The notes under the pieces were generated by a model. That model did not search any database and was not told the DNA's origin. It was given only the letters and a program-made list of their open reading frames with translations. Below, piece after piece: positions 7,838-44,264 of a stretch of 45,463 nt of DNA; positions within the stretch are counted from its first letter, which is position 1, and the number at the start of each line of letters is the position of its first letter. The translations under genes and the position numbers were made by a program. This stretch comes from a virus: positions 1 to 45,463 of the IMG/VR virus record IMGVR_UViG_3300048686_000173; one strand, 5' to 3'.

Positions 7838-7865
7838 TTGCGCCTTTTAATTTTTATGTTATAAT
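7838..7865 (+). promoter_or_regulatory. Sigma70-type (early) promoter
   Basis: TTGCGC at 7838-7843 and consensus TATAAT at 7860-7865 with a 16-base spacer. The following ATG is at 7871, five bases after the -10, again placing the expected start within a base or two of the initiator codon. It restarts expression of the right half of the small-gene array and lies back to back with the cassette promoter. Confidence 0.65.
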
Positions 7866-7870
7866 ACGTT

Positions 7871-8230
7871 ATGGATAAACCCTTTCAATTAATACCATTA
7901 AACAGCCAGAAAAGCCATTGGCAAGTTATTTGGGACAGAACCAAATATGACGATATACGCAGAGTTTTGGAGAAGAATTTGTTGTTGGATGTTTTGTTTC
8001 GTGACGCAAAATGCATTGAAGTGGGATTAAGAATTGCATTGAATGGTGGAGAAAAAGAAATTATGTGGATTGACAATAAGACATATTGGCAAGATACATC
8101 TAAGCAATACAGCGAATACTTACAGGATATGTATGTAATCACTGGTGTCGTTTTTAAAAACGAAACTGAAGCGACATTCTTTAGAGATTATTTAGAGAAA
8201 AAGGTTATTTGGAAATTATTGACTACTTGA
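7871..8230 (+). CDS. Small array protein 6 (119 aa), longer member
   Basis: First gene of the right block. Residues about 90-103 (VVFKNETEATFFRD) match the array signature, with E in place of D, and are nearly the same as FKNETDAIHF of the first array gene; this is the main evidence that both blocks belong together. A C-terminal extension (about 14 residues) and a longer N-terminal half distinguish it. Its start directly follows a consensus -10 box. Function unknown. Confidence 0.7.
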   Translation: MDKPFQLIPLNSQKSHWQVIWDRTKYDDIRRVLEKNLLLDVLFRDAKCIEVGLRIALNGGEKEIMWIDNKTYWQDTSKQYSEYLQDMYVITGVVFKNETEATFFRDYLEKKVIWKLLTT

Positions 8231-8231
8231 T

Positions 8232-8474
8232 ATGGATATCATACAGGAATTATCACCTATCATTGAGATGATTGACGAAATAAAGGTCAACCCCTCTGAT
8301 AGTAACAAAGTAACATTCAAAGTTAAAGATGACCCCATGACTGTAATTAAATGGTGTCGTAGAAACTTTGGTAATAGGGGTGATGGTTGGGATTTCTCCG
8401 GTGGGACTAAAAATATAGAAGTAACGATTTGGTCAAGTAAACTAAAGGTTATGTGGGAATTATGGCAGAATTAA
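8232..8474 (+). CDS. Small array protein 7 (80 aa), divergent
   Basis: Starts one base after the preceding TGA. The C-terminus VTIWSSKLKVMWELWQN keeps the hydrophobic register of the array signature but lacks the Asp. The middle (WCRRNFGNRGDGWDF) is similar in feel to the WCEIYIGEFDKQWY of the next gene, which supports duplication. Function unknown. Confidence 0.65.
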   Translation: MDIIQELSPIIEMIDEIKVNPSDSNKVTFKVKDDPMTVIKWCRRNFGNRGDGWDFSGGTKNIEVTIWSSKLKVMWELWQN

Positions 8475-8683
8475 ATTCAGAATGGAAGTATAAAATAACA
8501 ATCAACGAAAAAGACTGGGAACAAGTTCAAAAATGGTGTGAAATTTATATTGGTGAGTTTGACAAGCAATGGTATAAATTGGGCATGGATATTGCACAGA
8601 ATATATTTGATGCGGACTATAGAACCACGTGGTTGTTTAAAGAAGAAAAAGATGTTATAATGTTTAAATTGAGATGGGCATAA
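8462..8683 (+). CDS. Small array protein 8 (73 aa)
   Basis: Ends WLFKEEKDVIMFKLRWA, almost the same as the fourth array gene, and closes the array. I choose ATG 8462 rather than the GTG nine bases upstream because it gives a compact protein and a 13-base overlap typical of this block. Its TAA shares one base with the ATG of the exonuclease (TAATG). Function unknown. Confidence 0.7.
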   Translation: MAELNSEWKYKITINEKDWEQVQKWCEIYIGEFDKQWYKLGMDIAQNIFDADYRTTWLFKEEKDVIMFKLRWA

Positions 8684-10238: not shown

Positions 10239-10246
10239 AATAAATA
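10239..10246 (+). promoter_or_regulatory. T4-late-type promoter (AATAAATA)
   Basis: AATAAATA on the plus strand, divergent from the TATAAATA box at 10195-10202. Five bases separate it from an in-frame ATG at 10252. The SD-supported start of the gene is at 10330, so the leader is about 78 bases. Confidence 0.6.
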
Positions 10247-10329
10247 TAAGCATGTACTCAACTCAAGTTTTCGTTTATACTCAACGACAAATCGTTATAC
10301 TACTAACAGGCCTTAGCCCAAGGAGTTAT

Positions 10330-11022
10330 ATGCCACAGTATGCAAAGCCACTGACCCTACACAAAGGGGTAGATAATCAATTACAATTTCAGTTCTTAAA
10401 TCAGGAACAAAAACCTGTCGATATTACCGGAAAAGAAATTACCTGTAGAATTATTAATTACATGGGTAATCAAATACTTATTCAAAAGGCATTAACTGTT
10501 CAATTAGGTGCTACGGGCATAGCATCTTTATTCTTAAATGCAGCAGATATCGAAAATATCGATATGCAAAAGTGTTTCTATACACTAGAAATTCCAGTAG
10601 GTGAATTCGATTTTCCTGTATTTGTGGATCAAAACGCCGGGGCAAGGGGCGACATTAATATTGTGAATTCCGTATTACCTAGTTTTGTTCCTAGCCAACC
10701 TGTCAGTATCCCTTCAGGACAGCCTTTCCCCAATCTCGCAAATTTAGGAAACGGGAACTCAAATACAGTAACATACTATAGTAGTACGATTAACACCGAA
10801 GATAATCCTATATTAACCTTGCAAGTTCATTATGATGAATTTTATGGTAATGTAGCAATTTTGGGTTCTACAATTGTAGACGGTGATTGGTATCCCATAC
10901 AATTACATGAATACTCTAACGTCACAGAAACAAAAGGCTATGTAGTTAGAGGATTCCATCCATATATTCGTATGGAATTTGAAAGTAATGCCGGCGCGGC
11001 AATGAACATATTGGCTAGATAA
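10330..11022 (+). CDS. Baseplate/virion structural protein, BppU-like N-terminus (230 aa)
   Basis: The first 95 residues (MPQYAKPLTLHKGVDNQLQF, then DITGKEITCRI and a TGIASLFL strand) resemble the N-terminal beta domain of phage upper-baseplate proteins (BppU type), which anchor receptor-binding parts. The rest is a Ser/Asn linker (PSQPVSIPSGQPFPN) and a C-terminal beta domain with ILTLQVHYDEFYGN. I choose ATG 10330 because AAGGAG lies four to five bases upstream and the homologous-looking fold begins here. An in-frame ATG at 10252 would add 26 residues and sits where the late promoter should start transcription, so a longer form is possible. It probably forms a virion decoration or baseplate part. 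Confidence 0.65.
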   Translation: MPQYAKPLTLHKGVDNQLQFQFLNQEQKPVDITGKEITCRIINYMGNQILIQKALTVQLGATGIASLFLNAADIENIDMQKCFYTLEIPVGEFDFPVFVDQNAGARGDINIVNSVLPSFVPSQPVSIPSGQPFPNLANLGNGNSNTVTYYSSTINTEDNPILTLQVHYDEFYGNVAILGSTIVDGDWYPIQLHEYSNVTETKGYVVRGFHPYIRMEFESNAGAAMNILAR

Positions 11023-16650: not shown

Positions 16651-16658
16651 GTTAAATA
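16651..16658 (+). promoter_or_regulatory. Late-type promoter variant (GTTAAATA)
   Basis: GTTAAATA immediately after a terminator, followed by exactly five bases and the ATG at 16664. The gene needs a new promoter here because of the terminator, and the spacing implies a leaderless transcript. Confidence 0.55.
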
Positions 16659-16663
16659 TGTAA

Positions 16664-17116
16664 ATGAGTTTCATTGTTACATGCTACACGCTTTTTGACA
16701 TAACTTATACTGGAGTTTTAAATAGACATAAACCTAATGTTGATGAAGATTTGAATAATTGGACATATAAAAGAAATACTCAATGTAATTTAGATACAAT
16801 AGTTCAGAGTATATCATTACGCTCTCAGCCAGAAAACATTACAAAGCCCGTGAAAACGACAGTTAAGTTTGATAAAAGTTCTGAATTTGGATTTCTCTTT
16901 CCTGAGGATGAGGAGCACAACTGCTGGAGTTTTAGTTTTGAAATTATGCACCCTAGAGTTTTTGATGATGGCAAGCATGAACTAGGAGCACTATACAATG
17001 ATTGTGACGGTGTGCCTATGATTAAGTGTGGTACTGAGTGGGTCAAATTACCCGAATTTTTAGATACAAGTTCGGAACTTAGAAATATCTATTTTAAGGT
17101 AGTTAATAATGAATAA
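16664..17116 (+). CDS. Unknown late protein (150 aa)
   Basis: A soluble beta-rich protein beginning FIVTCYTLFDITYTGVLNR, with an acidic centre (FLFPEDEEHNCWSFSFEIMHP) and no known motif. The first gene after a terminator, expressed from a late-type box whose expected +1 is its ATG. It overlaps the next gene by eight bases, so they form a pair. Function unknown. Confidence 0.7.
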   Translation: MSFIVTCYTLFDITYTGVLNRHKPNVDEDLNNWTYKRNTQCNLDTIVQSISLRSQPENITKPVKTTVKFDKSSEFGFLFPEDEEHNCWSFSFEIMHPRVFDDGKHELGALYNDCDGVPMIKCGTEWVKLPEFLDTSSELRNIYFKVVNNE

Positions 17117-17603
17117 CAGACTAGATGTAGAATCAAAATTTGAAAAAGTTTTGGGTATTAAACTTTTAAAAGATTTAGAAAATTTAACTATTTTTAAAAA
17201 TCAACATGGTAATTATGAGTTGTTTAATTACTATATTATTACAAAGATTGCCGATAAGCAATATCAAGTCACAACCAAAACTTCATTTACCACACACATT
17301 TTTCACTCATTAAAAAATGCGGCTATTTGGTGTACATATGATAAACGCAATCATTTTCATGGTAGTACGAGAATAATAGAATTAGATAGAAAATTAGCAA
17401 GTCTAGAGGCTAAACTTATATTGCATAAAAAACTATATAAAAACGCAAAAGACAATGAATCTAAACTTATCTATATTGCTAAATTTAACGAAGAAAGATT
17501 GCAAAAAGCATCAATACAACGTGAACTCAATAGATACGAAGATGAGTCCAAAAGATGGCAATTAAAAAGGTTGGCTACGAAACCAACAATTTACCATAAT
17601 TAA
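17109..17603 (+). CDS. Unknown protein with C-terminal coiled coil (164 aa)
   Basis: The N-terminal half is a compact alpha/beta region (YYIITKIADKQYQVTTK). The C-terminal 75 residues are strongly helical and charged (IIELDRKLASLEAKLILHKK, later FNEERLQKASIQRELNRYED), a likely coiled coil. Coupled to the preceding gene by overlap. It could be an assembly or scaffold-associated factor; no family is recognised. Confidence 0.7.
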   Translation: MNNRLDVESKFEKVLGIKLLKDLENLTIFKNQHGNYELFNYYIITKIADKQYQVTTKTSFTTHIFHSLKNAAIWCTYDKRNHFHGSTRIIELDRKLASLEAKLILHKKLYKNAKDNESKLIYIAKFNEERLQKASIQRELNRYEDESKRWQLKRLATKPTIYHN

Positions 17604-17611
17604 GATAAATA
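17604..17611 (+). promoter_or_regulatory. T4-late-type promoter (GATAAATA)
   Basis: GATAAATA begins one base after the preceding stop codon. The gene downstream starts at 17638, giving a leader of about 20 bases. Confidence 0.65.
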
Positions 17612-17637
17612 ATATAACAAGTACGGAATATAAAACT

Positions 17638-18342
17638 ATGAAACTTACCGACCTAGACAATAAAAGTAACTCTGCTTCAGCAAAAGCATTAGAACAAACT
17701 TATTCTTTTTCTTTCCCTACAGAAAGAATGGGAGTTCAACAAGTTCAAACAATGTTGCGTAAAGTAACAGGGCTTATGGCTGAGTCAAAGCAGCAAGTAG
17801 ATTTTTATCAAAAGCAAACTAGCCCGGCCTACATGAAACTAGTATTCATGGAACAGGCACTACAGGATCGTTATCAACAACTATTAAGCGTTAAACCAAG
17901 AATAGTTTTTGAAAACGAAGAAGTTGAAAAGTCACAAGTTGTTCTTGCCGCGCAAGACATGGTTGACTCTGTTCAAAAAATGCTAGAAGATGTTGGTCAA
18001 ATGCAAGTTAAAGAATTGCCTGCATTAGTATCTAGCATTGAATCTGAAATTGGCGTTAATGAAAGCCAAACATATAATGAACAAGTTACTGCACAGTTAG
18101 ATACATTAAGTGCCGCACTCAAAGAAGCATTCAATGGCTTGAAGGCTGCATTAGGTACTGTAACTGGTCAAGGTGGTGGATTTGAAGCAAGTGGTGATAT
18201 GGCTGCAGCCCCAGTGGGAGGTGAAGAAGTTGATATATCTGCTGATGAAGAAACACCAGCAGGTGATGAACAAGCAGATGTTTCTGTAGAAGAACCACCC
18301 GAAGAAGCACCTGTCGCAGGCGCTGGCAGAACACTTCGTTAA
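17638..18342 (+). CDS. Unknown helical late protein with acidic tail (234 aa)
   Basis: Mostly helical, with long heptad-like stretches (residues about 30-175, including ERMGVQQVQTMLRKVTGLM and MVDSVQKMLEDVGQMQVKEL). The last 50 residues are almost all Glu/Asp/Ala/Gly/Pro. Helical core plus acidic tail is a common shape of prohead core or scaffold components, and a late promoter stands before it, but no sequence match is claimed. It ends two bases before the next gene. Confidence 0.7.
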   Translation: MKLTDLDNKSNSASAKALEQTYSFSFPTERMGVQQVQTMLRKVTGLMAESKQQVDFYQKQTSPAYMKLVFMEQALQDRYQQLLSVKPRIVFENEEVEKSQVVLAAQDMVDSVQKMLEDVGQMQVKELPALVSSIESEIGVNESQTYNEQVTAQLDTLSAALKEAFNGLKAALGTVTGQGGGFEASGDMAAAPVGGEEVDISADEETPAGDEQADVSVEEPPEEAPVAGAGRTLR

Positions 18343-18344
18343 TC

Positions 18345-18689
18345 ATGTTGTTATTTGAGTTGGCTGAACCTGATCCTCTGTTGATAAAAATTGCAGCGAT
18401 CACCAGCCAACTTAAAAGTGATTTAGAAAAAAGTCCACCTGAAAATCCATGGTCTACTGAAGATTTGTTAAATCTTTACAATGATCATGGTATCGTATTA
18501 GACAAATCTGATTTGTACAATATGATTAAGAAACCTCCTTTGAATAAAGTTATCACCAATATTGAAGGTGATACTATTGTGTTTAAGGGTCAAAATACTG
18601 ATGCACCAACTGACCAAGAACAAAGTCAAAAGGTCGTATCTCAAATGGCACAAGATGCCGCACAAAACTTACAAACTAATCAAGTATAA
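18345..18689 (+). CDS. Unknown protein (114 aa)
   Basis: Acidic N-terminal half with PWSTEDLLNLYNDHGIVLDK, then LYNMIKKPPLNKVITNIEGD and a Gln-rich tail. The order of short helix and extended strand, ending IEGDTIVFKG, is reminiscent of a small adaptor, but nothing is recognised. It is co-transcribed with the gene two bases upstream. Confidence 0.65.
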   Translation: MLLFELAEPDPLLIKIAAITSQLKSDLEKSPPENPWSTEDLLNLYNDHGIVLDKSDLYNMIKKPPLNKVITNIEGDTIVFKGQNTDAPTDQEQSQKVVSQMAQDAAQNLQTNQV

Positions 18690-18697
18690 AACCATGC

Positions 18698-18705
18698 TAT
18701 AAATA
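18698..18705 (+). promoter_or_regulatory. T4-late-type promoter (TATAAATA)
   Basis: Exact T4 late consensus, followed by five bases and the ATG at 18711, which is therefore the expected first base of the transcript. It drives the accessory operon 18711-22347. Confidence 0.75.
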
Positions 18706-18710
18706 TATGC

Positions 18711-19517
18711 ATGACAACAAAAACATTGATGGTTTGTGGTTGTAGTTTTTCAGCCCCTAGTACCAAACTAAAATATACAGGAACACATTTTAGTCAAGTT
18801 TTGGCTAAAAAATTGAATTATAAATTAATAAATCTTGCGTATCAAGGTTGTAGTAATGGCGGCATTAGAATTCAAATAGATGAAGTTATCAGACAAAAAC
18901 CCGATTTTGCAATTATTATACCTACCTTTTCTGATAGAATAGAAATTCCTGCCTCAGGATTACAAGTAGATTATAATAACTTATCTTGGTTTGAATTTGA
19001 TAAACTAGTAAAAAATGACAGTGGCTACGATGAAAGTAAAGGTATAAACAATATCAATTGTACCAATAATCTTAGCCCCAGTTTGATTTGTGAGAATTTT
19101 GTTAGCGTTGTCAATAACTGGAAACATGATTATAGGAACAAACAACAATTCAAACCTGAAATCGCAGAAGCATTAAAAAATTATGTATCATACTTGTATG
19201 ATCAAAATTGGAAAACACAACAAGACAGATGGATTATTGAGCATGGTGCACTAGAATTGGTTAAAAATAATATACCATTTATAATAATACCTACAATTTG
19301 GTTATGGAAGCATCAAATAAGTGAACCGAAAATATTAGATAAAAAATATTATACTGTTGATTATGAATACTGCCCACTAACAACATCAAGACAACAAGAA
19401 TATTCTATAGATGATAATTGGAACGCTGACCCCGGTTATCACACTAATGTTGAGGGGCAAATCTATCTAGCCAATATGTATGAAAAATTAATGAAGGAGC
19501 GTTGGAATATATGTTAA
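18711..19517 (+). CDS. SGNH/GDSL-like hydrolase (268 aa)
   Basis: The N-terminal LMVCGCSFSAPS places a candidate nucleophile Ser in the GCSxS block I variant seen in phage SGNH-like proteins. LINLAYQGCSNGGIRIQI gives the Gly and Asn of the following blocks. ADPGYHTNVEGQIYLANMY near the C-terminus carries the D-x(3)-H pair expected of the last block. Such enzymes de-acylate or acylate glycans and lipids. It starts an operon with an Fe-S protein, two glycosyltransferase-like proteins and a nuclease, overlapping the next gene by seven bases. A second, shorter relative is at 34419. Substrate unknown. Confidence 0.7.
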   Translation: MTTKTLMVCGCSFSAPSTKLKYTGTHFSQVLAKKLNYKLINLAYQGCSNGGIRIQIDEVIRQKPDFAIIIPTFSDRIEIPASGLQVDYNNLSWFEFDKLVKNDSGYDESKGINNINCTNNLSPSLICENFVSVVNNWKHDYRNKQQFKPEIAEALKNYVSYLYDQNWKTQQDRWIIEHGALELVKNNIPFIIIPTIWLWKHQISEPKILDKKYYTVDYEYCPLTTSRQQEYSIDDNWNADPGYHTNVEGQIYLANMYEKLMKERWNIC

Positions 19518-19831
19518 GCGTAACTGATGCCGCTAAAAAGAAAATTCAACAAACATTAACCAAAAGAGGTAAAGGTTTAGGAATACGAGTAGGTGTTAGA
19601 ACAACTGGGTGTTCCGGTTTAGCGTATGTGCTTGAATTTGTTGACAATGCTAGTGAATATGATATACAATACGATTGCAATGGCTGTAGTCTATTTGTTG
19701 ACCCAAAAAGTTGTCCATATCTAGAGGGTATGACAATAGATTATGAACGAGTGGGGTTGAATGAGGGTTTTAAATTTATTAATCCTAATGAGAAAGACAG
19801 ATGTGGGTGCGGGGAAAGTTTTAGAGTATGA
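19511..19831 (+). CDS. A-type iron-sulfur carrier (IscA/ErpA/HesB family)
   Basis: A-type carriers bind Fe-S clusters through three cysteines and hand them to apo-proteins. The three ligands are in place: C34 in RTTGCSGLAY, and C98 and C100 in CGCGESF; the overall length of 106 residues is standard. The N-terminal LSVTDAAKKKIQQ also matches the family. I use ATG 19511 instead of the TTG three codons earlier. It overlaps both neighbours by a few bases, in one operon. It may supply clusters to a phage or host Fe-S enzyme in late infection; no obvious phage client is in the window. Confidence 0.93.
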   Translation: MLSVTDAAKKKIQQTLTKRGKGLGIRVGVRTTGCSGLAYVLEFVDNASEYDIQYDCNGCSLFVDPKSCPYLEGMTIDYERVGLNEGFKFINPNEKDRCGCGESFRV

Positions 19832-20760
19832 ATGATTTGGTTACAGTCACCTGTAATAAAGATAAGAGATATATGCAATTACAGGCAGAAAGTATACAAA
19901 AATTTTTATATCCATGTGCTCATTGGGTCATTATAAATGAAGATGATGTTGATATAGATGCATGGGAAAAGTTTTTAAGTCCATTCTATGATAAGCATAA
20001 ACTAATTTTATTATCTAGAGAACAACTTATACCCAATAGACATGATCATACTAGTTGGTGTTTACACGAAGTATTAAATCACCCACTAAGTGGATATCTA
20101 TTACAAAATGTACTTAAATTAGAAATTGCAAAAATTATACAAACTGATTATCTTGTAGTAGATACGAAGAATTTTTTTATAAAACCGTCCCATTTAGATG
20201 AGTGGGACAACTATATAGGATCAGAGTTTGTAGAATTCATAGATGATGTTCCTGAATCTTTTTTAAAACTTTTCCCCTTTGCCACAGGAAATAAATCTAT
20301 TTTTGGAGAAGCAATCGTATCTTATGCAGAACAACTAAACAAAGAAATTCCTAAGTATTACTTTTCTCCTAAGACGCCATTTAAAATTTGTCATGATGTT
20401 TTACTTCCTTATCTTATTGATGACCAATTATTACAATTAATATTGTTTAATAAGGATATGCAAATACTAGCGTCCCCTAGTGAGTTTGCTTTCTATTCTT
20501 TACTAATACAGGATCGTATAAGGTTTGGTAAAAACACGATTGCTAGTAGAACGGAATCAAAAGTTGAAATAAAGTTTGTATTCATGAATTCTGATTTTGA
20601 AAAAGATTTAAAATCAGAGGGCGAGTGCTTTAGATTTTTTGATGCACCTAACTTTAAACTTTTAGGATTTCACAGAGATTTTTTAGCAAAATGTGATCCA
20701 GGTCATATTCATGCATTAAACATTTATCTCAAAAACAAAGGTTTTGAATTTCAATATTAA
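19828..20760 (+). CDS. Glycosyltransferase-like protein A (DUF6492-like, 310 aa)
   Basis: The N-terminus LVTVTCNKDKRYMQLQAESI followed by HWVIINEDD has the start of a GT-A-like nucleotide-diphospho-sugar fold, and QTDYLVVDTKNFFIKP (about 108-123) could be the D-x-D-like metal site. It resembles proteins annotated as DUF6492 by my recollection. It is a paralogue of the next gene, with the same motifs in the same order. Likely role: adding sugars to virion proteins or host surface polymers. It overlaps the IscA-like gene by four bases. Confidence 0.65.
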   Translation: MNDLVTVTCNKDKRYMQLQAESIQKFLYPCAHWVIINEDDVDIDAWEKFLSPFYDKHKLILLSREQLIPNRHDHTSWCLHEVLNHPLSGYLLQNVLKLEIAKIIQTDYLVVDTKNFFIKPSHLDEWDNYIGSEFVEFIDDVPESFLKLFPFATGNKSIFGEAIVSYAEQLNKEIPKYYFSPKTPFKICHDVLLPYLIDDQLLQLILFNKDMQILASPSEFAFYSLLIQDRIRFGKNTIASRTESKVEIKFVFMNSDFEKDLKSEGECFRFFDAPNFKLLGFHRDFLAKCDPGHIHALNIYLKNKGFEFQY

Positions 20761-20761
20761 A

Positions 20762-21667
20762 ATGCATCTAGTAACTGTTACATGTAACCGTGATTTCTCA
20801 CAAATGCTGTTGCAAGCGGAAAGCATATCAAAATTTTTAGAGTCATGCACTCATTATATTATTATAAATGAGAAGGACACTGATTTGGCATTTTGGTGGA
20901 GATGGTTATCACCATATTACACAAATCATAAATTAGTTTTATTGAAAAGAATTAGTTATGAGTATAATAAACTGCCGTATCCTGACGTTAACACATCTGT
21001 AGCAACGGGCTGGGCTATACAACAGTTACAAAAATTATTAATTGCCTATCATTTGAATGATGATTATTTGTTACTTGATAGTAAAAATTTCTTTATAAAA
21101 CATACATCATTAAATGAATGGGACAATTGTATAGGAGAAAATTTTCTTTTAAAGCATGATCCGCAGCATATCTATTGTAAAGTATCTGAGATTTACGCTA
21201 AAACTCTAGGCATGCCTATTAAAGAACAAGTATTTTATCCACGTACACCATTTAAAATAAAAAAGAACTTAATTACTGAATCCAAATTATTTGATTTTTA
21301 TAGTATAGGTAAAACTATATGTGAACCAATGAGTGCTTTAAGGCTACCTATATCAGAATTTGTATTCTATTCATATCTTATTGACCAGCAAGAATGGGAA
21401 AAAATACCAAACAGTATATACCCTGAAGATGTAATTTATTGGAATTTTAAAGAGGATGAATTAAACAAAATAGCCGAGTCTTTTGATAAGAATAATAATG
21501 TAAAAATAGTAGCGTTTCATCGTGGATTCCTGTCAGAGGTTGATGAAAAAGCCTTAAATTTAATAAATGCTTTACTAAAAACACTAGGATTTACAAACAA
21601 AATTTCGCCATTGCCACCTGATTGGGAAATGACACCAGGATTAAACTCAGAATCGAACTTTAAATGA
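20762..21667 (+). CDS. Glycosyltransferase-like protein B (paralogue of A)
   Basis: Same layout as the preceding gene: LVTVTCNRDFSQMLLQAESI, HYIIINEKDTD, DYLLLDSKNFFIKH, then a shared FYPRTPFKI segment and the C-terminal AFHRGFL (FHRDFL in A). I choose ATG 20762, one base after the previous stop, because MHLVTVTCNRD then aligns exactly with MNDLVTVTCNKD of gene A; the ATG at 20744 would lie inside gene A. The two arose by tandem duplication and have diverged strongly. It ends in an ATGA overlap with the nuclease gene. Confidence 0.68.
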   Translation: MHLVTVTCNRDFSQMLLQAESISKFLESCTHYIIINEKDTDLAFWWRWLSPYYTNHKLVLLKRISYEYNKLPYPDVNTSVATGWAIQQLQKLLIAYHLNDDYLLLDSKNFFIKHTSLNEWDNCIGENFLLKHDPQHIYCKVSEIYAKTLGMPIKEQVFYPRTPFKIKKNLITESKLFDFYSIGKTICEPMSALRLPISEFVFYSYLIDQQEWEKIPNSIYPEDVIYWNFKEDELNKIAESFDKNNNVKIVAFHRGFLSEVDEKALNLINALLKTLGFTNKISPLPPDWEMTPGLNSESNFK

Positions 21668-25400: not shown

Positions 25401-25884
25401 AACTTCGGGTGTTTCAATTACTAATTTGACTTCATTGTCCACTGGTGGAAATACAACAGCAGGGACTATTACAGGTAACTGGTCATTGACTGCAGGATCT
25501 AGACTACAAGCAACATATGCTGACTTAGCAGAATATTATGAAGGTGATAAATTTTATGAGCCTGGTCTAGTCTTAGAATTTGGTGGAGAAAAAGAAGTTA
25601 CACTTGCATCAGATTCAACCACAAAAGTAGCAGGTGTTGTTTCAACTAATCCGGCTTATGCTATGAATGCAAATTGTAGAGGTATCGCTGTACCTATAGC
25701 ACTTCAAGGCAGAGTACCTGTTAAGGTGAGAGGTAAAATTTCTAAAGGTGATTTAATGATATCTGGTGGAAACGGATATGCACGTCCTGCATCTAGTCCT
25801 ATGATGGGTTCTGTTATAGGAAAAGCACTTCAAAACTTTGATGGTGTTGAAGGTGTAATAGAAATTGCAGTTGGAAGGTTATAA
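22402..25884 (+). CDS. Long tail-fibre-like protein (1160 aa)
   Basis: The N-terminal 60 residues (MAIVQISKIQQRSGNLVDLP, then LYIGRTDPGPN) match the attachment domain common to fibres of aquatic T4-like phages and recall the N-terminus of the Bordetella phage tropism protein. Residues about 150-400 are beta-rich repeats with ITSGNTYYIRNV type units. Residues about 440-900 are fibre repeats of the ANVGNL / TATGNVSGGNLTTTG kind. The last 120 residues (from about ADLAEYYEGDKFYEPGLVL) form a compact conserved domain ending in GRL. A trimeric fibre or tail spike is expected. It shares one base (TAATG) with the protease gene that follows. Confidence 0.85.
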   Translation: MAIVQISKIQQRSGNLVDLPQLDNAEFGWASDQNRLYIGRTDPGPNENIEVLTSYSNISFSQIDGAEGNLDINNAENGQVLAFDGDNWVNKGGNAGGLLTFGNIANVKIDGGADGYVVTTDGTGNLSFTPKTTIIAYIQNAESTLLDAGLNYATSTDGATEIITLASNFVYTPNTAVVFTGTGFGNITSGNTYYIRNVISNTSITISDTLGGANFDLSTDTGNLTMQLLGTEITTEENNFFVNGSIVTITDTPGMVQLNGNTYYTDILTSNTLSLYTDVALTIPLVSSNFNAFPYTSVTQTYDLTTANNIVSIGNTSLFTVNQPIEFVGTTFGNIEANVQYYVKSIVNAGAPGNIQISAELLPNGSAGNVVQLSNATGTCNVFGTGGRMICSTGGGGTSTAGGSNTQIQFNNVNLLDGDPKFTYDYISSVVTLTGNANVSNLNATGTVTASRLVSNIANGTAPLTVTSVTRVANLNVSYSNVSDFEVVTTQTTGTFYPVFVNANTTANYALGSNANIAFNAATGNLSATLLNANGNLTAGNIITSGNANLAKINLSGHIIPTANITYDLGNSTNAFRDLYLSGTSIKIGSQSVTSNSLGITLSNAVYSTTLSVTGNANVGNLGVSGLITTSGNVSGSNLTTTGVVTATGNVSGGNLTTTGVVTATGNVTGGNLVTSGAANVGSLKVNGVSNLGPISNLVISGGTANQIIKTDGSGNLTFTNPTGGYYLHTQSSASTTWTIVHNLNNQYVSVDPIDNTGNSYVGRYDFPVVNYTNANAVILTFSSAVTGYCAIVGGGFTYANGGGNSTPGGLDTYVQFNDGGILGGQPSLTFNKTTGTLSATLFAGSGANLTNLNASNISTGTLPSARLTGSYNISITGSAATATTATSATTATSATTAGTVTTAAQPNITSVGTLTTLTVSGNTTTGGIKTDNYYYANGVAISFAGSYSNSNVASYLPTYTGNIAAGNVTASGNVTAANFVGSGAGSPVISSSSTLAISATSGVSITNLTSLSTGGNTTAGTITGNWSLTAGSRLQATYADLAEYYEGDKFYEPGLVLEFGGEKEVTLASDSTTKVAGVVSTNPAYAMNANCRGIAVPIALQGRVPVKVRGKISKGDLMISGGNGYARPASSPMMGSVIGKALQNFDGVEGVIEIAVGRL
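24316..24392 (+). repeat. Direct repeat, 26 bases at 51-base spacing
   Basis: The same 26-base stretch beginning CTAACAACAACAGGTG occurs at 24316-24341 and 24367-24392. It encodes a 17-codon fibre repeat (NLTTTGVVTATGNVSGG). The exact identity at the DNA level shows recent duplication or gene conversion within the fibre. Confidence 0.8.
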
Positions 25885-27869
25885 TGAGTGAACAAAAATA
25901 TTATGTAGTGGGAACTACAACAGCAGAGGCTTGGGAATATGTACATCAAGTTCTTACGCAAGATGGTAGTTTAGATAATAATATCCCATCAAGACCAGTA
26001 GTGTGTGCTGATTTAAAAGAACAAAGTCCAACAAGAGCCATTTATTTGATGACAGACGAAGAGGCAGCACAACTAAGCAGTCATCCTAATATTCAATTTA
26101 TTCATTTAGATCCAGCAAAGAATCCTGAAATGTTTCCTACGCAAGTTAAGGATGACTTGCATTGTGCTACAAGATATACCTCTACAGTAAAAAATTATAG
26201 AAATTTTTCTGGATTGTTACCGGCTACACCAAACAGCACTGATGCTAATCGTGCAGGTTATCAACTATATAGAACATCTCAATATGCTAATCCATGGCAA
26301 GGTCAAAGTGTTAGTACAGTTTTAAATAATGCAATCACAAATACAAATACAGGCAGACATGTTGATGTTGTTGTGGGTGATGAAGGGTGTTGGATAGGTC
26401 ATGTTGAATTTCAAAGAAATCCTACAGGTGGGGTAGAACTTCCCAGAGGATATATAGGCGGTAATGTGTTACCGGGTAATGGTACATGTGATGTATTAGA
26501 TATGGTTCTTGACGGTCCCTACTACATTGATCCTGCATGGTTCAATGCTAGTCCGGGTACAAGACTTATAACACGATGGGACGGCACTATTGTTCCGACC
26601 GAACAAGCAGCCCGTGATTGGTGGGGAAACCCCTCACAGCGTTCTTCTCAGTTTGCATCTGCCGGTACCGTAACTGTTCCTTCTTATTATACAAGAGCAA
26701 ATTGCAATGGATCAAATACTGCCAAGACACCGAGTAATGAAGGTCAACACGGTACTGCTTGTGCAGGATTAACCTTTGGAAGAACATATGGATGGGCATA
26801 TAACGCTAACAAGTGGGTTATAGACGCATATGGTAATTATGGTTTTTGGCCTGCTATAGATAGTTATTTTGATGTGATGGCAATTTTTCACGCTAATAAA
26901 CCTATCAATCCAATATATGGTACAAGAGATCCTACAATTAGTAGTAATAGTTGGGGTTTTAGAGCAACACAGGCCACTAGTGGTGGGTTTTATTATTTTA
27001 GACAAGGTACATCAGGAACAGGTGGGGTTTCATTTGTAACAAAGCCTGCTTTTATGCAATATCTTGGAAGTTCTGGTGATGGTGGCAGATTCAAAGGTGA
27101 GATGGTTACCAACAGTTTTACAACAGCCGGTGATGAATTGATAGCAGCCGGGGTGATTTTTGTTGTCGCCGCCGGAAATAGCAATCAAAAGCAAGTAAGT
27201 TCTTCAAGTCCTGACTTTGATAATTATTGGTCTCCCTCTAACGCCACACCCCTAACTAGTGCTACACATAGTGAGTTTGGCGCAACATGTTATAATACGA
27301 CAAGTCGCCGTGGATTCCCGCAACAACTAGGTAAATATAGTTCAAGTGGAAACATTGTATATCCTGCGATTAATATTGGTGCATTGGATGACGATAATCA
27401 ACCCGATGGCAAAGAAAGAAAAGTTAACTACAGCGATATGGGCAATGAAATTGATATGTATTTGCCTGCTGATGGAACACTAACATCTAATCAATCTTAC
27501 TCTCCTCAATATGCTAGATATGATTCATATCCATCATCAGCAGTTCAATCCTATGATTGCAGATTTAGTGGCACTAGTGCCGCTTGCCCTGTAGCAACCG
27601 GACTAATTGCAACTGCATTGGAAACAAATAGAAGTTGGGGTTGGCAACAAGTGCGAACATGGATTCAGGGTCTTACTGAACAATCTGCTACAACTTTTTA
27701 TCAAGGACCTGATCCTTCAACCGCAACAACTAGTGAGTGGGCAGACCTAAACAGTTTAATGGGCGGTGTTAGACGAGTAGGATACAATAATATCACTTCT
27801 AGTTCTAATGTTTCTGTAGGTGGCACTGGACTTACAATCAGTGGGTCCGGCTTAAGAATTGGTTTATAA
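25884..27869 (+). CDS. Subtilisin-like serine protease (family S8, 661 aa)
   Basis: The whole S8 catalytic set is present in order: Asp166 in DVVVGDEGC, His289 in GQHGTACAG, the oxyanion Asn432 in VAAGNSNQ, and Ser565 in FSGTSAACPVATG. The substrate-binding strand SSNSWGF is also visible. The first ~95 residues (YYVVGTTTAEAWEYVHQVL to FIHLDP) look like an intramolecular inhibitor propeptide. There is no secretion signal. Its start overlaps the fibre stop by one base and a late promoter follows, so it is made with tail proteins and may be a virion protein that cuts host surface or fibre proteins. The last 30 residues (GGTGLTISGSGL) are fibre-like. Confidence 0.88.
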   Translation: MSEQKYYVVGTTTAEAWEYVHQVLTQDGSLDNNIPSRPVVCADLKEQSPTRAIYLMTDEEAAQLSSHPNIQFIHLDPAKNPEMFPTQVKDDLHCATRYTSTVKNYRNFSGLLPATPNSTDANRAGYQLYRTSQYANPWQGQSVSTVLNNAITNTNTGRHVDVVVGDEGCWIGHVEFQRNPTGGVELPRGYIGGNVLPGNGTCDVLDMVLDGPYYIDPAWFNASPGTRLITRWDGTIVPTEQAARDWWGNPSQRSSQFASAGTVTVPSYYTRANCNGSNTAKTPSNEGQHGTACAGLTFGRTYGWAYNANKWVIDAYGNYGFWPAIDSYFDVMAIFHANKPINPIYGTRDPTISSNSWGFRATQATSGGFYYFRQGTSGTGGVSFVTKPAFMQYLGSSGDGGRFKGEMVTNSFTTAGDELIAAGVIFVVAAGNSNQKQVSSSSPDFDNYWSPSNATPLTSATHSEFGATCYNTTSRRGFPQQLGKYSSSGNIVYPAINIGALDDDNQPDGKERKVNYSDMGNEIDMYLPADGTLTSNQSYSPQYARYDSYPSSAVQSYDCRFSGTSAACPVATGLIATALETNRSWGWQQVRTWIQGLTEQSATTFYQGPDPSTATTSEWADLNSLMGGVRRVGYNNITSSSNVSVGGTGLTISGSGLRIGL

Positions 27870-28177: not shown

Positions 28178-28185
28178 GATAAATA
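28178..28185 (+). promoter_or_regulatory. T4-late-type promoter (GATAAATA)
   Basis: GATAAATA 81 bases before the ATG at 28267, with an expected start near 28191, leaving an unusually long leader that carries three hairpins. Confidence 0.65.
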
Positions 28186-28193
28186 CATTAAGC

Positions 28194-28248
28194 ACTCTCA
28201 TGGGGAGAGTCTTATGCGGTCCCCGCCGCGTAGTGGATTAGAACCCAC
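28194..28248 (+). other. 5' leader with three consecutive hairpins
   Basis: Three stems follow one another in the leader: ACTCTC/GAGAGT (28194-28199 with 28205-28210), GCGG/CCGC (28216-28219 with 28226-28229) and GTGG/CCAC (28233-28236 with 28245-28248). An AGGAG site follows and the gene starts at 28267. The GC-rich middle stem stands out in this AT-rich genome. It probably stabilises the mRNA or times translation. There is no T-run, so it is not a terminator. Confidence 0.6.
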
Positions 28249-28266
28249 ATAACATAGGAGAAACAA

Positions 28267-29274
28267 ATGGGACGCCCATTAAAAATCGCAAAAGCACAAG
28301 CAGTAGTTACAATTACTGCAACAAACGGCACAACCGAAGTAGTCACAACAAATGCAAATTTTACTAACTTAGGTATTATCGCAGGTATGCCATTTGTACC
28401 AGGAACTACTGCAGGTGGTCTAACAGCAGGTACAATGTATTGGATTCTTGAAGTAATCAATGCAGGTAATAACAGTACATTTACTGTTTCAGCAACACCA
28501 TTGAATGCTAACCCAACATATACAAAGGTTAACTTATCAACTGCAGGTGGTTTAACAACTTCAGCAACAGTAGCGCCAGTTGATGCATATTTCAATAATC
28601 CAAATGGTGGTGATGGTTATCCAGCAACAAACGCAAATACATATAGCGTTGTAGGTGGTAATACAGCAATCTATGGTACACAAGTACTAGTAGGTGTTTG
28701 TATGGGTATCGCTGGTACAGGTACAATCACAACGTCAGACGGTAGTCCAAACTTAGATGGTGTTGGTACAGATTTTGCCAACACATTGACCGATGGATCA
28801 ATTGTATATACAGACGCAGGAGTATTGTTAGGTACAATTACTGACATTGCAAATGCTAACGCTGTATTCGCAACATTTGCTGCAAACGCAACTGCTAACG
28901 TTACTGATGGTGCATATGTTTACGGTAATCCAGAAGCAGGCTTTATCGTTCGTCAGAAGGGTAAGCAGAAGTATCTAGTAACAGGTACAACTTCAGGTTT
29001 AACACAGGCTGTTTATACTGCTAACGTTGCCAACACAGCATTGTTACCAAATACAATGACTATTACCGCAACATATGCTAACTCATCAACAGTTAAGGTT
29101 CAGAGTTTAAGTGATCATACTGCTGAGTTGTTTACTGCTACATCAGGTCCGGTTGCAACAGGTAATATTGTTTTACAGAACGCTAATCCAGCATTCTCTA
29201 CATTCAATACTGCTTATGCCGCAGACACATACGGTGGACAACCTTACCCAATCGTAACTATTACTGGATCATAA
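28267..29274 (+). CDS. Virion structural protein (335 aa)
   Basis: Thr/Ala/Asn-rich beta protein with units similar to the fibre gene (FTNLGIIAGMPFVPGTT, GTMYWILEVINAGNNSTF resembling TYYIRNVISNTSITIS of the fibre). It has a good AGGAG site, a structured leader and its own late promoter, all signs of high-level late expression. Probable major virion surface or tail part, exact place unknown. Codon use is biased to simple, frequent codons, as in the other abundant structural genes. Confidence 0.7.
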   Translation: MGRPLKIAKAQAVVTITATNGTTEVVTTNANFTNLGIIAGMPFVPGTTAGGLTAGTMYWILEVINAGNNSTFTVSATPLNANPTYTKVNLSTAGGLTTSATVAPVDAYFNNPNGGDGYPATNANTYSVVGGNTAIYGTQVLVGVCMGIAGTGTITTSDGSPNLDGVGTDFANTLTDGSIVYTDAGVLLGTITDIANANAVFATFAANATANVTDGAYVYGNPEAGFIVRQKGKQKYLVTGTTSGLTQAVYTANVANTALLPNTMTITATYANSSTVKVQSLSDHTAELFTATSGPVATGNIVLQNANPAFSTFNTAYAADTYGGQPYPIVTITGS

Positions 29275-29591: not shown

Positions 29592-29613
29592 GGGGACTTA
29601 GGTCCCCTTTTTT
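29592..29613 (+). terminator. Bidirectional terminator between convergent operons
   Basis: Stem GGGGAC/GTCCCC with a TTAG loop, six T on the right and four or more A on the left, so it can end transcripts from both strands. It is the same stem as the terminator at 42-64 with a different loop. It overlaps the stop of the minus-strand Nudix gene. Confidence 0.88.
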
Positions 29614-30014
29614 ATTAGTTTCATTAATTTTTCTTGTACAACATCAAAGTTTACTGTACTGAATAATCCAGGATGTAATGGTTTAGGATATTGATTTTTA
29701 CCTACCCAAGCATATCCGCAATGTTCTTCATTGAGATTGGGTATAAATTCTTCGTCAACTGAACAAAAAAATGTATGGTATGTAAATGTATTGTTTACAA
29801 ATTTTTGTATTGGTATTAGTTTAGCATTGTTAGGAAATAAGCCAATTTCCTCTTCGCACTCTCTAGTGAGGCCTTCTAATAGAGTTTCGTTTTCTTCTAT
29901 TTTGCCACCTGGTATACCCCAATTACCCGGATTCTTGTGATCCGTTCTTAACAGATATAAAAACCGATTAGTGTTTTTTGCAAAAAAGAATACGCCTGCT
30001 GAAGTGTTACTCAT
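29598..30014 (-). CDS. Nudix hydrolase (138 aa)
   Basis: The Nudix box G-x5-E-x7-REUxEExGU is complete: G37, E43, R51, E52, E55, E56 and G58, within GKIEENETLLEGLTRECEEE and the IGL that follows. Flanking sequence (LLRTDHKNPGNWGIPGG) is also typical. These enzymes cleave nucleoside-diphosphate compounds, including oxidised nucleotides, dinucleotides or RNA caps. I use ATG 30014 because the upstream TTG start would lie inside the promoter-like GATAAATC. It follows gp15 on the minus strand after 17 bases. Confidence 0.92.
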   Translation of the reverse strand: MSNTSAGVFFFAKNTNRFLYLLRTDHKNPGNWGIPGGKIEENETLLEGLTRECEEEIGLFPNNAKLIPIQKFVNNTFTYHTFFCSVDEEFIPNLNEEHCGYAWVGKNQYPKPLHPGLFSTVNFDVVQEKLMKLIKKGT

Positions 30015-30019
30015 ATTAT

Positions 30020-30027
30020 GATTTATC
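30020..30027 (-). promoter_or_regulatory. Late-type promoter-like box (GATAAATC)
   Basis: GATAAATC on the minus strand with exactly five bases to the Nudix ATG at 30014. It differs from the common octamer only in the last base. Confidence 0.4.
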
Positions 30028-33130: not shown

Positions 33131-33138
33131 TATTTATC
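33131..33138 (-). promoter_or_regulatory. T4-late-type promoter (GATAAATA)
   Basis: GATAAATA on the minus strand, with about a 15-base leader to the gp14 start at 33110. It drives gp14, gp15 and perhaps the Nudix gene, and lies back to back with an early promoter on the plus strand. Confidence 0.7.
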
Positions 33139-35507: not shown

Positions 35508-35515
35508 GATAAATA
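35508..35515 (+). promoter_or_regulatory. T4-late-type promoter (GATAAATA) inside an inverted repeat
   Basis: GATAAATA lies between the arms GTTACC (35501-35506) and GGTAAC (35526-35531), six bases each. The downstream ATG is at 35536. No other late promoter in the window is flanked this way. Confidence 0.65.
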
Positions 35516-36396: not shown

Positions 36397-37062
36397 ATGA
36401 TCATAGGAATTACAGGCCTCATTGGCAGCGGAAAAGATACTGCTGCCAATTATCTTATAACCCATCATCAATTTAAAAAAGAGAGTTTTGCTAATAGTTT
36501 GAAAGACGCGGTAGCCGCAGTATTTGGATGGGATCGTGAACTATTAGAAGGACAAAGTAAATACAGCCGTGAATGGCGAGAACAAAAAGATGTATGGTGG
36601 AGTGAAAGATTAGGCCAAGACATTACCCCAAGATGGGTGTTACAATATTGGGGTACGGAAGTTCTTAGAAATAGATTCCATGATGATATTTGGGTAGCAA
36701 GTTTAGAAAACAAACTACGTAATTCACGTGATGATATCGTTATAACTGATTGTAGATTTCCGAATGAGATTGACGCAATCAAAAATGCAGGTGGTTTTAC
36801 ATTAAGAATTAATAGAGGACCTAATCCTGAATGGTATGATGATGCAGTAGCATTTACAAAAGGACCGTCACATATAGGTTGGGCTATTGGAAAGTTTAAT
36901 CTACATCAAAAAGGTGTACATGCTAGTGAATATAGTAGTGTAGGACTCGATTATGATTATCAAATTGACAACAATGGTACTATCGTAGACCTACATGAAC
37001 AACTTGCTAAAATATTAGAAGAAATTAATGGTCAACTTCAAGATCGCCACGCTTCCAAGTAA
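36397..37062 (+). CDS. 1: Deoxynucleoside monophosphate kinase, gp1-like (221 aa)
   Basis: Phosphorylates dNMPs for phage DNA synthesis. The P-loop GLIGSGKD (residues 7-14) stands at the N-terminus; YWGTEVLRNRFHDDIWV and VITDCRFPNEIDAI are the substrate and LID-like segments seen in T4 gp1. Length is close to T4 gp1 (241). Start chosen at ATG 36397 with AGGAG upstream; the frame could begin at 36340 but that adds a non-homologous Ser-rich leader. The 3' end overlaps the minus-strand HNH-like gene by 38 bases. Confidence 0.88.
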   Translation: MIIGITGLIGSGKDTAANYLITHHQFKKESFANSLKDAVAAVFGWDRELLEGQSKYSREWREQKDVWWSERLGQDITPRWVLQYWGTEVLRNRFHDDIWVASLENKLRNSRDDIVITDCRFPNEIDAIKNAGGFTLRINRGPNPEWYDDAVAFTKGPSHIGWAIGKFNLHQKGVHASEYSSVGLDYDYQIDNNGTIVDLHEQLAKILEEINGQLQDRHASK

Positions 37063-37369
37063 CATTTTTTCTTTTAACAACTTCCACACAATTCAAACAG
37101 ATACTTCTTAAATTTATTAAGTTTCCATTTTCTAAATTTCCGTCTATATGAAAAACGGTTATTTGATTTGGGAACAAACTTCTAAAGCCACATAGATCAC
37201 ATGTGGTTTTTTTATTGTACCCTTGATTCTTCCATCTAGGTTCTCTGGGTTTTAGTTTTTTCTTTTTGCGGCCGCACTCATCACATATACTTCTATAGTG
37301 GGTGACACCCTCACGCTTGTAGTTAACGGCACAAGGGTTTTTACTGCATGTTTTACATATAGGACGCAT
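37025..37369 (-). CDS. HNH/zinc-ribbon protein (114 aa), possible endonuclease
   Basis: Two CxxC knuckles at the N-terminus (PICKTCSKNPC and ICDECGRKK) are followed by a basic block, then CDLCGF. The last third, VFHIDGNLENGNLINLRSIC, has the HNH order H-x-D-G-N-x(2)-N-x(4)-NL-x(2)-C with final LNC, a treble-clef fold. It may be a homing-type or recombination nuclease, or a zinc protein that lost activity, as only one of the two catalytic His is obvious. It carries its own TATAAATA promoter, with five bases to the ATG. Confidence 0.7.
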   Translation of the reverse strand: MRPICKTCSKNPCAVNYKREGVTHYRSICDECGRKKKKLKPREPRWKNQGYNKKTTCDLCGFRSLFPNQITVFHIDGNLENGNLINLRSICLNCVEVVKRKNVTWKRGDLEVDH

Positions 37370-41081: not shown

Positions 41082-41089
41082 GATAAATA
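41082..41089 (+). promoter_or_regulatory. T4-late-type promoter (GATAAATA)
   Basis: GATAAATA 20 bases before the tail tube start at 41110, with AGGAG (41097-41101) for translation. This gives the abundant tube protein its own transcript. Confidence 0.72.
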
Positions 41090-43331: not shown

Positions 43332-43766
43332 ATGGCAAATTGGGCGCAAGGTGTATTCAATCCTAAAAATCCACAAAAATATGTAGGCAAACATAAACCT
43401 AGATATCGTAGTGGTTGGGAACTAACCTTTATGACATTTTGTGATACAAACAAAAATGTATTACAGTGGGCTAGTGAAGCAATAGCAATTCCATATCGTA
43501 ATCCATTAACCGGCAAACCTAGTCAATATATACCTGACTTCTTTGTAGTATATCAAAATAGATTCGGCAAACAAATAGCAGAAGTTGTCGAAATCAAACC
43601 TAAAAAACAAAGTCTAATTGAAAGCAAAGTTGCAAGTGCTAAAGATAGAGCAATTGTAGCAGTTAATCATGCTAAATGGGCCGCTGCATCAGCATATTGT
43701 AAAAGTCAAGGATTAACCTTCAGAGTAATTACTGAGGATGATTTGTTTCATAATGGGCGTAAATAA
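43332..43766 (+). CDS. 4: Head completion protein, gp4-like nuclease fold (144 aa)
   Basis: T4 gp4 (also named gp50/65) is needed to finish filled heads and has an endonuclease fold. The residues here fit closely: the start FNPKNPQKYVGKHKPRYRSG, catalytic E30 in RSGWE, D69 in YIPDFF and E87-I-K89 in EVVEIKPKKQ, the E-D-ExK pattern of the restriction-enzyme fold. Length 144 against about 150 in T4. It follows the tail gene group and precedes the small terminase, a plausible head-finishing cluster. Confidence 0.87.
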   Translation: MANWAQGVFNPKNPQKYVGKHKPRYRSGWELTFMTFCDTNKNVLQWASEAIAIPYRNPLTGKPSQYIPDFFVVYQNRFGKQIAEVVEIKPKKQSLIESKVASAKDRAIVAVNHAKWAAASAYCKSQGLTFRVITEDDLFHNGRK

Positions 43767-43773
43767 CTAAATA
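43766..43773 (+). promoter_or_regulatory. Late-type promoter variant (ACTAAATA)
   Basis: ACTAAATA starts on the last base of the gp4-like gene and is followed by five bases and the ATG at 43779, so the small-terminase transcript is predicted to be leaderless. The same variant precedes the cupin cassette. Confidence 0.55.
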
Positions 43774-43778
43774 TTTAC

Positions 43779-44264
43779 ATGACCAAAAAGTTAAACGAAT
43801 TATTTGAACTTCCCGAGGAAGAAAAAGAAGCCAATCAATCTATTATTGAACGGGCAGAAATCGTTACTGCAACTGAGGAAGCCTTCAATAACCTTGAAAA
43901 AATTGAAAAAGCATTACCTGCTGTTCGTGGGCTAGAAGCAGCCGATAATGAAATGGACGGACTAGCAGAACTAGCCACTAATAGTTATAAAGACTTAATG
44001 GATTTGGGTATGCAAGTTGATAGCAGATATGCCAGTGAAATATTCAATAGCGCAGGTACAATGCTAGGTCATGCTATTACTGCAAAAACTGCCAAACTAA
44101 ACAAAAAGTTAAAGATGATTGAACTTCAATTAAAGAAGGCTCAACTAGATCAAAAAATACAGTCCAATGGTCAAGAAATTGAAAACACGCCAGTCGGTGA
44201 GGGCAAGTCTTTAGATAGAAACGAACTACTAAAAATCTTGGCATCCAAAACCGAGACCAAATGA
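43779..44264 (+). CDS. 16: Terminase small subunit, gp16-like (161 aa)
   Basis: T4 gp16 recognises and gathers DNA for the gp17 packaging motor. The protein is almost wholly helical with an acidic N-terminus. The section SYKDLMDLGMQVDSRYASEI and the following FNSAGTMLGHAITAKTAKL with a long basic helix (NKKLKMIELQLKKAQ) agree in pattern with the central coiled region of gp16, and length is near the T4 protein (164). The large terminase gene is not seen in the window and probably lies beyond its right edge. The call rests on pattern and context. Confidence 0.68.
   Translation: MTKKLNELFELPEEEKEANQSIIERAEIVTATEEAFNNLEKIEKALPAVRGLEAADNEMDGLAELATNSYKDLMDLGMQVDSRYASEIFNSAGTMLGHAITAKTAKLNKKLKMIELQLKKAQLDQKIQSNGQEIENTPVGEGKSLDRNELLKILASKTETK

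Follow-up and report, generated by a model that had tools for sequence, protein, structure and literature searches.

The 45,463-bp window analysed here (the whole stretch of DNA in virus record IMGVR_UViG_3300048686_000173) is part of the genome of an uncultured jumbo T4-type phage, and five of its genes carry a late-promoter-like box, NNTAAATA, exactly five bases 5' of the ATG. This geometry holds up, shows conservation in several genes and is specific to certain lineages, and it is very probably best explained by gp55-type late promoters that make leaderless mRNAs. The initial annotation of the window had proposed leaderless or near-leaderless late messages, and at the sequence level this proposal is supported by the bimodal distances between box and ATG, by the specificity of the box, by conservation gene by gene and by a transcription start that, as promoters with a leader suggest, would fall on the ATG of the short-gap genes. 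We infer that gp55 reads the boxes, that the RNA 5' ends lie at the A of this ATG and that translation proceeds in the mode outlined below.

In the mechanism that we favor, the boxes would be T4-type late promoters read by the host RNA polymerase with a phage gp55-type sigma factor. Where the box lies about 18 to 22 nt from the start codon, the message would have a leader of about 13 to 17 nt, often with a Shine-Dalgarno (SD) motif (leadered genes); where the box ends 4 to 5 nt before the start codon, the RNA would start at the A of the AUG (short-gap genes). Translation of such a leaderless message would rely on ribosomes able to start at a 5'-terminal AUG, that is, on 70S-type initiation as for the lambda cI mRNA.

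Distance between box and start codon

Read directly, all six sites listed in the initial annotation are as described, each with exactly five bases between box and ATG. They are given here with their open reading frames (ORFs), one adjoining terminator and three leadered promoters for comparison.

10239..10246 (+): late-type box AATAAATA, 5 nt to ATG 10252
10252..11022 (+): 256-aa ORF, phrog_1084, predicted to be leaderless in this genome
16619..16644 (+): intrinsic terminator with a GC-rich ~8-bp stem and a run of six T, directly 5' of the 16651 box
16651..16658 (+): late-type box GTTAAATA, 5 nt to ATG 16664
16664..17116 (+): 150-aa ORF, predicted to be leaderless; no PHROG or Pfam match at E 0.001
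18698..18705 (+): late box TATAAATA, 5 nt to ATG 18711
18711..19517 (+): 268-aa ORF, predicted to be leaderless; no Pfam or PHROG match
30020..30027 (-): one-mismatch box GATAAATC, 5 nt to ATG 30014(-)
29598..30014 (-): NUDIX hydrolase ORF, Pfam PF00293
37375..37382 (-): late box TATAAATA, 5 nt to ATG 37369(-), divergent from the tail-sheath gene
37025..37369 (-): 114-aa Cys-rich ORF, predicted to be leaderless; HNH-like by eye only; no PHROG or Pfam match at E 0.001
43766..43773 (+): late-type box ACTAAATA, 5 nt to ATG 43779
43779..44264 (+): 161-aa ORF, phrog_16202, predicted to be leaderless; N-terminus MTKKL..LFELP
33131..33138 (-): leadered late promoter GATAAATA, 20 nt before ATG 33110(-)
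35508..35515 (+): leadered late promoter GATAAATA, 20 nt before ATG 35536 of the head-tail adaptor gene
41082..41089 (+): leadered late promoter GATAAATA, 20 nt and an SD motif (AGGAG) before the tail-tube ATG 41110

The two strands of the window together hold 41 TAAATA sites, five of which have an ORF-start ATG at gap 5 where 0.04 would be expected (binomial p ~7e-10, a single-test value with 61 gaps looked at), an ORF start being counted if it opened at least 60 codons and had an upstream stop within 25 codons. The next commonest gap is 20, and its four sites are the leadered class. ATG 43779 has a further TAAATA 13 nt upstream, at 43760. Over-representation of the full octamer TATAAATA in the window was also considered and was rejected, with 4 copies found against 7.8 expected.

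Relatives were gathered by three IMG/VR protein scans (the best 80 of 421, 80 of 241 and 80 of at least 600), which gave 237 loci; with the window included and two loci that repeat pieces of it skipped, gaps were scanned in 238 sequences (3.0 Mb). The TAAATA-to-ATG distances are bimodal, with 108 sites at gap 4, 146 at gap 5 and no more than 7 at any gap between 0 and 3, followed by a second hump of 89, 169, 140, 93 and 49 sites at gaps 18 to 22. The permuted hexamers numbered 14; ATAAAT, whose sequence overlaps the box, had 61 sites at gap 5, ATAATA had 21, and the other 12 had at most 13. Given the redundancy of the loci and the peaks of some permuted hexamers at other gaps, we give family counts more weight than site counts. 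These counts cover 1272 families with a minimum length of 60 aa, all ATGs in the first 25 codons were allowed, and the resulting histogram involves no start-call preference for gaps 4 to 6. TAAATA is the commonest of all hexamers at gap 5, where its 50 families place it above the SD hexamers, and the second commonest at gap 4 (34 families); it occurs in 3 to 8 families at gaps 0 to 3, in 1 to 11 at gaps 6 to 12 and in 21 to 27 at gaps 18 to 22. Other TAANNN hexamers at the short gap reach at most 12 families. The spacing of exactly five bases claimed initially is thus correct for all six listed sites in the window, and in the relatives it has to be widened to 4 or 5.

The gaps are bimodal inside single contigs too, with 20, 30 and 12 sites at gaps 4 and 5 in the relatives G001, G002 and G004. 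The short-gap share of boxed genes lies at about 36 to 38% (5/14 in the window and 24/66, 34/90 and 14/38 in these three contigs, which overlap the scanned loci, so that gene counts hold duplicates and family counts do not). The raw pattern ATAAATA-N5-ATG exceeds its reversed control in six of seven long relative contigs (15 versus 1, 19 versus 5, 10 versus 3, 12 versus 2, 8 versus 1 and 10 versus 1).

That two promoter classes share one geometry, as first noted from the window, is borne out by the sigma70-type extended -10 element TGnTATAAT, which lies 5 to 7 nt before the ATG in 13 distinct families (gap 5 in 5, gap 6 in 8 and gap 7 in 3). It is present in 0 or 1 family at each gap from 8 to 17 and rises a second time at 29 to 32. 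The control GT.TATAAT is found in 4 families at gap 6 because TATAAT alone peaks there (19 families), and the other controls have no gap-6 peak. The extended -10 at the ATG is a smaller class than the late-box class, and the window holds this example:

7857..7865 (+): sigma70-type extended -10 TGTTATAAT, 5 nt to ATG 7871, near-leaderless geometry
7871..8230 (+): 119-aa ORF under the extended -10

The site of the NUDIX gene at 30014 may belong to the sigma70-type -10 class instead. Its one-mismatch box at gap 5 is present as described, but the assignment as a late box is ambiguous, with a sigma70-like -10 as the alternative: a -10-like hexamer stands six nt 5' of the ATG in 7 of the 29 members of this family, and TAAATA at gap 4 to 6 in none of the 29.

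Transcription start, context and conservation

At leadered promoters, the frequency of A is 0.23 at box position 9, 0.59 at position 10 (gap index 4) and 0.46 at position 11, and A at position 11 rises to 0.64 when position 10 is a pyrimidine, compared to 0.34 otherwise. This base composition suggests a transcription start at an A four bases beyond the box, or at one five bases beyond it where the fourth base is a pyrimidine. In the short-gap genes, it is the A of the ATG that stands at position 10 (gap 4) or 11 (gap 5). A purine at position 10 is seen in 12% of gap-5 genes (family means) versus 61% of leadered genes, and families with a purine majority at this position number 4 of 50 versus 76 of 129 (Fisher 1e-10); the base before the ATG is a purine in 56% of genes without a box. 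In the available part of PMC1524935, the T4 late octamer is numbered -13 to -6, so that a gap of five puts the ATG at +1. The initial annotation had used this numbering correctly, and it agrees with a start at gap index 5.

SD-like 4-mers precede 0 to 3% of the short-gap genes (0/5 in the window, 0/24 in G001, 1/34 in G002 and 0/14 in G004), whereas in the same four genomes they precede 22 to 67% of leadered genes and 31 to 40% of genes without a box. Start-codon identity did not separate the classes, non-ATG starts being at background in both short-gap and leadered genes (ATG/GTG/TTG by family, 75/3/3 at gaps 4 to 5, 75/6/12 at gaps 18 to 22 and 14/8/6 at the control gaps 8 to 11). Alternative downstream starts were rejected, as SD-preceded ones within 15 codons average 2% over 75 families.

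In the 16664 (150-aa) family, 34 of 36 short-gap members have a terminator within the 70 nt 5' of the box; in the window, the 61-nt stretch with this terminator folds at -25.1 kcal/mol (z -6.7). Two other large families have no terminator before the box (0/88 and 0/98), and averaged by family the terminator frequency is 0.105 in short-gap genes, 0.060 in leadered ones and 0.009 in those with no box. Divergent genes make up 137 of 366 short-gap, 86 of 758 leadered and 483 of 2952 no-box genes. In G002, two divergent ORFs only 21 bp apart share one palindromic box, TATTTATAAATA, at gaps 4 and 5, and another divergent pair, in G001, is 41 bp apart with two boxes. At positions 1826-1846 of locus L277, the perfect palindrome TATTTATAAATA is the apparent bidirectional late promoter of divergent ORFs 21 bp apart. 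A different palindrome, CCTTCGAAGG, recurs about 5 to 10 nt 5' of the short-gap box of the 114-aa gene (the 37369(-) family), for example in L041, L087 and L131.

The promoter class is conserved in several families. Counted with start calls that favor an ATG at gap 4 to 6, the 54 non-redundant members of the 37369 (114-aa) family comprise 49 short-gap (gap 4 to 6), 0 leadered and 5 of neither type; in the 16664 family, 32 of 39 non-redundant members have TAAATA at gap 4 to 6, none has it at gap 12 to 35 and 7 have neither; the 43779 (161-aa) family has 35 short-gap, 8 leadered and 6 neither among 49 non-redundant members; and in the 18711 (268-aa) family, 2 of 3 non-redundant members are short-gap. 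The 161-aa family is conserved from residue 1, and the flanking DNA has drifted. All boxed members belong to one class in 24 of the 36 families that have three or more of them, versus 5.5 families after shuffling, which is conservation and not independent evidence, the members being related and partly duplicates.

The tail-tube ortholog is leadered in the window, G001 and G002, with the box GATAAATA, which in the window also precedes the neck genes; in the jumbo clade, tail-tube and neck genes are leadered. In the initial annotation, leader type was also suggested as a possible determinant of output level. The view that the abundant structural genes are those with leaders nevertheless fails as a rule, since the short-gap families of the jumbo clade include a terminase large subunit and virion proteins, and structural genes are short-gap in pelagiphages as well (the tail-tube gene in Mosig, tape-measure and baseplate genes in HTVC008M, and DNA-end-protector genes). 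A functional split by PHROG, with 72 proteins (70 short-gap family representatives and two from the window) set against 103 of 122 leadered representatives, gave no rule among the matches listed: HNH or homing endonucleases occur in both sets, and baseplate and portal matches are more frequent in the leadered set.

The window also holds a match to the Rfam freshwater-2 RNA (RF02980) at 28194-28269 (+), between a GATAAATA box at 28178-28185 and an ATG at 28267. Three of the seven relative pieces searched have further copies (L253 12208-12284, L284 19561-19639 on the minus strand and L334 11542-11619), and the downstream gene starts ATGGGACG. Because all four copies start 7 to 9 nt 3' of a GATAAATA box, this RNA appears from its position to form the 5' terminus of a late transcript of the phage.

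Occurrence in other phages

The best matches to the tail sheath of the window are from jumbo myoviruses (PA5oct-like phages, Phosso and Atu_ph07; 43 to 47% identity at 59 to 64% query coverage), and by tail sheath and gp55 PA5oct represents the nearest cultured group. Other recognizable genes of the window are those for the tail tube, the neck, a DnaB-like helicase and the NUDIX protein. A gp55 homologue (phrog_12791, E 8e-71 or better) is present in seven of the seven long relative contigs.

Outside this clade, HTVC008M stands out with 11 ORF starts at gaps 4 and 5 together, compared to 1 in T4, 2 in PA5oct and 0 each in Syn9, phiM12 and CBB; with the controls in parentheses, Mosig has 5 (0-3), Melnitz 3 (0-2) and P-SSM4 2 (0-2). 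The geometry is not above controls in T4, PA5oct, Syn9, phiM12 or CBB, and PA5oct is without a short-gap mode (2 sites at gap 5, where controls have 1 to 7 over gaps 4 to 6). The raw pattern likewise showed no excess over its reversed control in Atu_ph07 (6 versus 6), SCTP-2 (14 versus 16), P-SSM2 (3 versus 5) or CBB (2 versus 4), and it had no match in Phosso and Vibrio 2.275. In HTVC008M, all nine ATAAATA-N5-ATG sites fall on the depositors' start codons, and so do seven of nine ATAAATA-N4/5-ATG sites in Mosig. The ATGs concerned in HTVC008M are those at 6280, 7562, 16007(-), 18916(-), 19456, 31132, 49760, 75559 and 142360. These SAR11 pelagimyophages resemble the clade of the window in having the gap-5 arrangement at annotated starts; they differ from it, as does the OM43 phage Melnitz, in their smaller genomes and in being Kyanoviridae. 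On the sequences compared, the trait is lineage-specific and present in two T4-type groups whose gp55 proteins have different nearest relatives, and we infer an independent origin in the jumbo clade and the pelagiphages.

The T4 late promoters (gp55/gp33/gp45, TATAAATA) share with the clade the box core ATAAATA and, in the relatives, a gp55 homologue. The T4 late box lies about one helical turn before the start according to the available parts of PMC2988020 and PMC1524935. In contrast to the clade, T4 boxes are mostly 20 to 30 nt before the ATG, with a peak at 28; its two ATAAATA-N5-ATG matches are not annotated starts, and one TAAATA site at gap 5 passes the ORF filter. Leaderless genes of Mycobacterium and Deinococcus have a -10-like TA signal just 5' of the start codon. 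They are like the clade in having a promoter element at a fixed short distance from the ATG and no SD motif, but there the reader is the host sigma factor, whereas most of the genes predicted to be leaderless in the clade would use a phage late promoter. Lambda cI is read by the host sigma70, and its message is the phage leaderless message that the extended -10 class of the clade resembles; cI is, however, a single gene, while the arrangement in the clade spans a promoter class. The cI mRNA is named as leaderless in the available part of PMC9031893. In the part of PMC5312081 available, the authors of the AR9 study state that phage transcripts are often leaderless, and the leaders of AR9 measure 26 to 491 nt. 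No description of leaderless T4-type late promoters was found among the matches listed from the open-licence literature, in titles and the starts of abstracts.

Some further genes of the window deserve mention. An IscA-like iron-sulphur assembly protein (19502-19831) is closest to beta- and gammaproteobacterial proteins (52 to 63% identity, best 80 of 138 loci), which is a weak hint at a host from these groups. Two adjoining ORFs of about 310 aa (19828-21667), the second below the cutoff, match DUF6492 and are perhaps a tandem duplication, and a 661-aa protein at 25884-27869 has a subtilase domain (PF00082). Tandem small ORFs with unlike bodies and a common C terminus, ..FxLRW or LKW, occur in the window (4781-5450 and 8453-8683) and in L252 (11403-17500); among the window and L250 to L252, four were seen in the window and twelve in L252. 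Their tails, which overlap the next start, may be the source of the TTGAGGTGGnnATG motif.

Counterevidence, alternatives and implications

Several observations weigh against leaderless late messages or lessen the force of the evidence for them. A pyrimidine before the ATG is common also in gap-4 (69%) and leadered (65%) genes, compared to 44% in no-box genes, so part of this signal may be a start-codon preference. The absence of SD motifs is partly forced because the box takes up most of the stretch in which an SD motif would lie, and in 80 of 369 short-gap genes an SD-like 4-mer does occur in the 12 nt 5' of the box, too far from the ATG. Divergence is only mildly enriched by family means (0.29 short-gap, 0.20 leadered, 0.20 no box), as 85 of the 137 divergent short-gap genes belong to the 114-aa family and 52 of 278 remain without it. 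In the redundant locus set, permuted hexamers can peak at other gaps (TAAAAT, 223 sites), contig G007 has 3 ATAAATA-N5-ATG matches versus 2 controls and hence no clear excess, and the member counts per family carry the start-call preference given above. The geometry at 10252 is not conserved (2 short-gap, 12 leadered and 39 neither among 53 members), and in the 114- and 150-aa families the N termini differ by a few residues between members, with conservation from residues 3 to 6. Among the pelagiphages and their kin, two of the nine Mosig sites are off annotated starts, and Melnitz and P-SSM4 equal or barely exceed their controls. gp55 was not found within the 45-kb window fragment, and T4-derived models of gp33 and gp45 (phrog_254, phrog_223, PF16805 and PF02916) matched nothing in contigs G001 to G007. 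The latter negative is weak because the same models also matched nothing in PA5oct and the Pfam pair (PF16805 and PF02916) nothing in CBB, which is no proven positive control for the gp45 model; the models may be too narrow for the clade.

The alternative that survives best is that the messages are not exactly leaderless and carry 1 to 3 nt from wobbling start sites, which we regard as possible although not probable. It would accommodate gaps of 4, 5 and less often 6 (34, 50 and 11 families), and start selection may tolerate a base or two; set against this, the pyrimidine at -1 in 88% of gap-5 genes suggests a start at the A itself.

It is rather unlikely that a real late box has come to overlap the start codon simply through scarce intergenic space, with leaderlessness as an unselected by-product. 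Same-strand short-gap genes do have less upstream room than leadered ones, but many short-gap genes have room, the gap is sharply 4 to 5 with no spread over 0 to 12, a purine one base before the ATG is avoided in gap-5 genes, and the class of a gene was kept while its flanking DNA drifted.

A/T-rich upstream elements are known to aid SD-less initiation, and this role would allow the box to be a translational element (an S1 site or an upstream AU enhancer) in a longer transcript and no promoter at all. We find this very improbable, given that the same box stands 18 to 22 nt upstream elsewhere with A enriched 4 to 5 nt downstream, that TAAATA is the sole TAANNN hexamer enriched in this way, and that upstream transcripts would have little space where one family is preceded by terminators and where two divergent intergenic regions are very short. 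Lastly, phage genes are tightly packed (short-gap families lie a median of 28 nt from a same-strand upstream gene and leadered ones 42 nt, and a same-strand gene end lies within 60 nt in 164 of 369 short-gap genes), but the notion that genes merely abut and that the TAA of TAAATA is the upstream stop codon can be rejected almost outright. This TAA coincides with the stop called for the upstream gene in 4 of 369 short-gap genes, no other TAANNN hexamer at this gap exceeds 12 families versus 50 for TAAATA, and upstream space of more than 40 nt is present in 41% of the same-strand short-gap families and in 70% of the divergent ones.

Returning to leaderless late messages, a broader scheme can be put forward tentatively, in which the jumbo lineage and, independently, the pelagiphages run a gene-specific dual translation program: gp55 and sigma70 promoters would each come in leadered and leaderless forms, the form would be conserved per gene, and the leaderless form would keep a set of genes expressed under ribosome conditions other than those that suit SD-led genes.

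If RNA data agree, a T4-type promoter class would be fused to the start codon across whole phage lineages, and leaderless translation in phages would be system-wide and not an oddity of lambda cI. For pelagimyophages, the prediction of late promoters is reported as unsuccessful in the available part of PMC7029224, and the leaderless geometry may explain this failure. These phages would offer a natural comparison of leadered and leaderless messages within one infected cell and under one sigma factor, and for gene callers the box would be an exact signal of the start codon in these uncultured phages.

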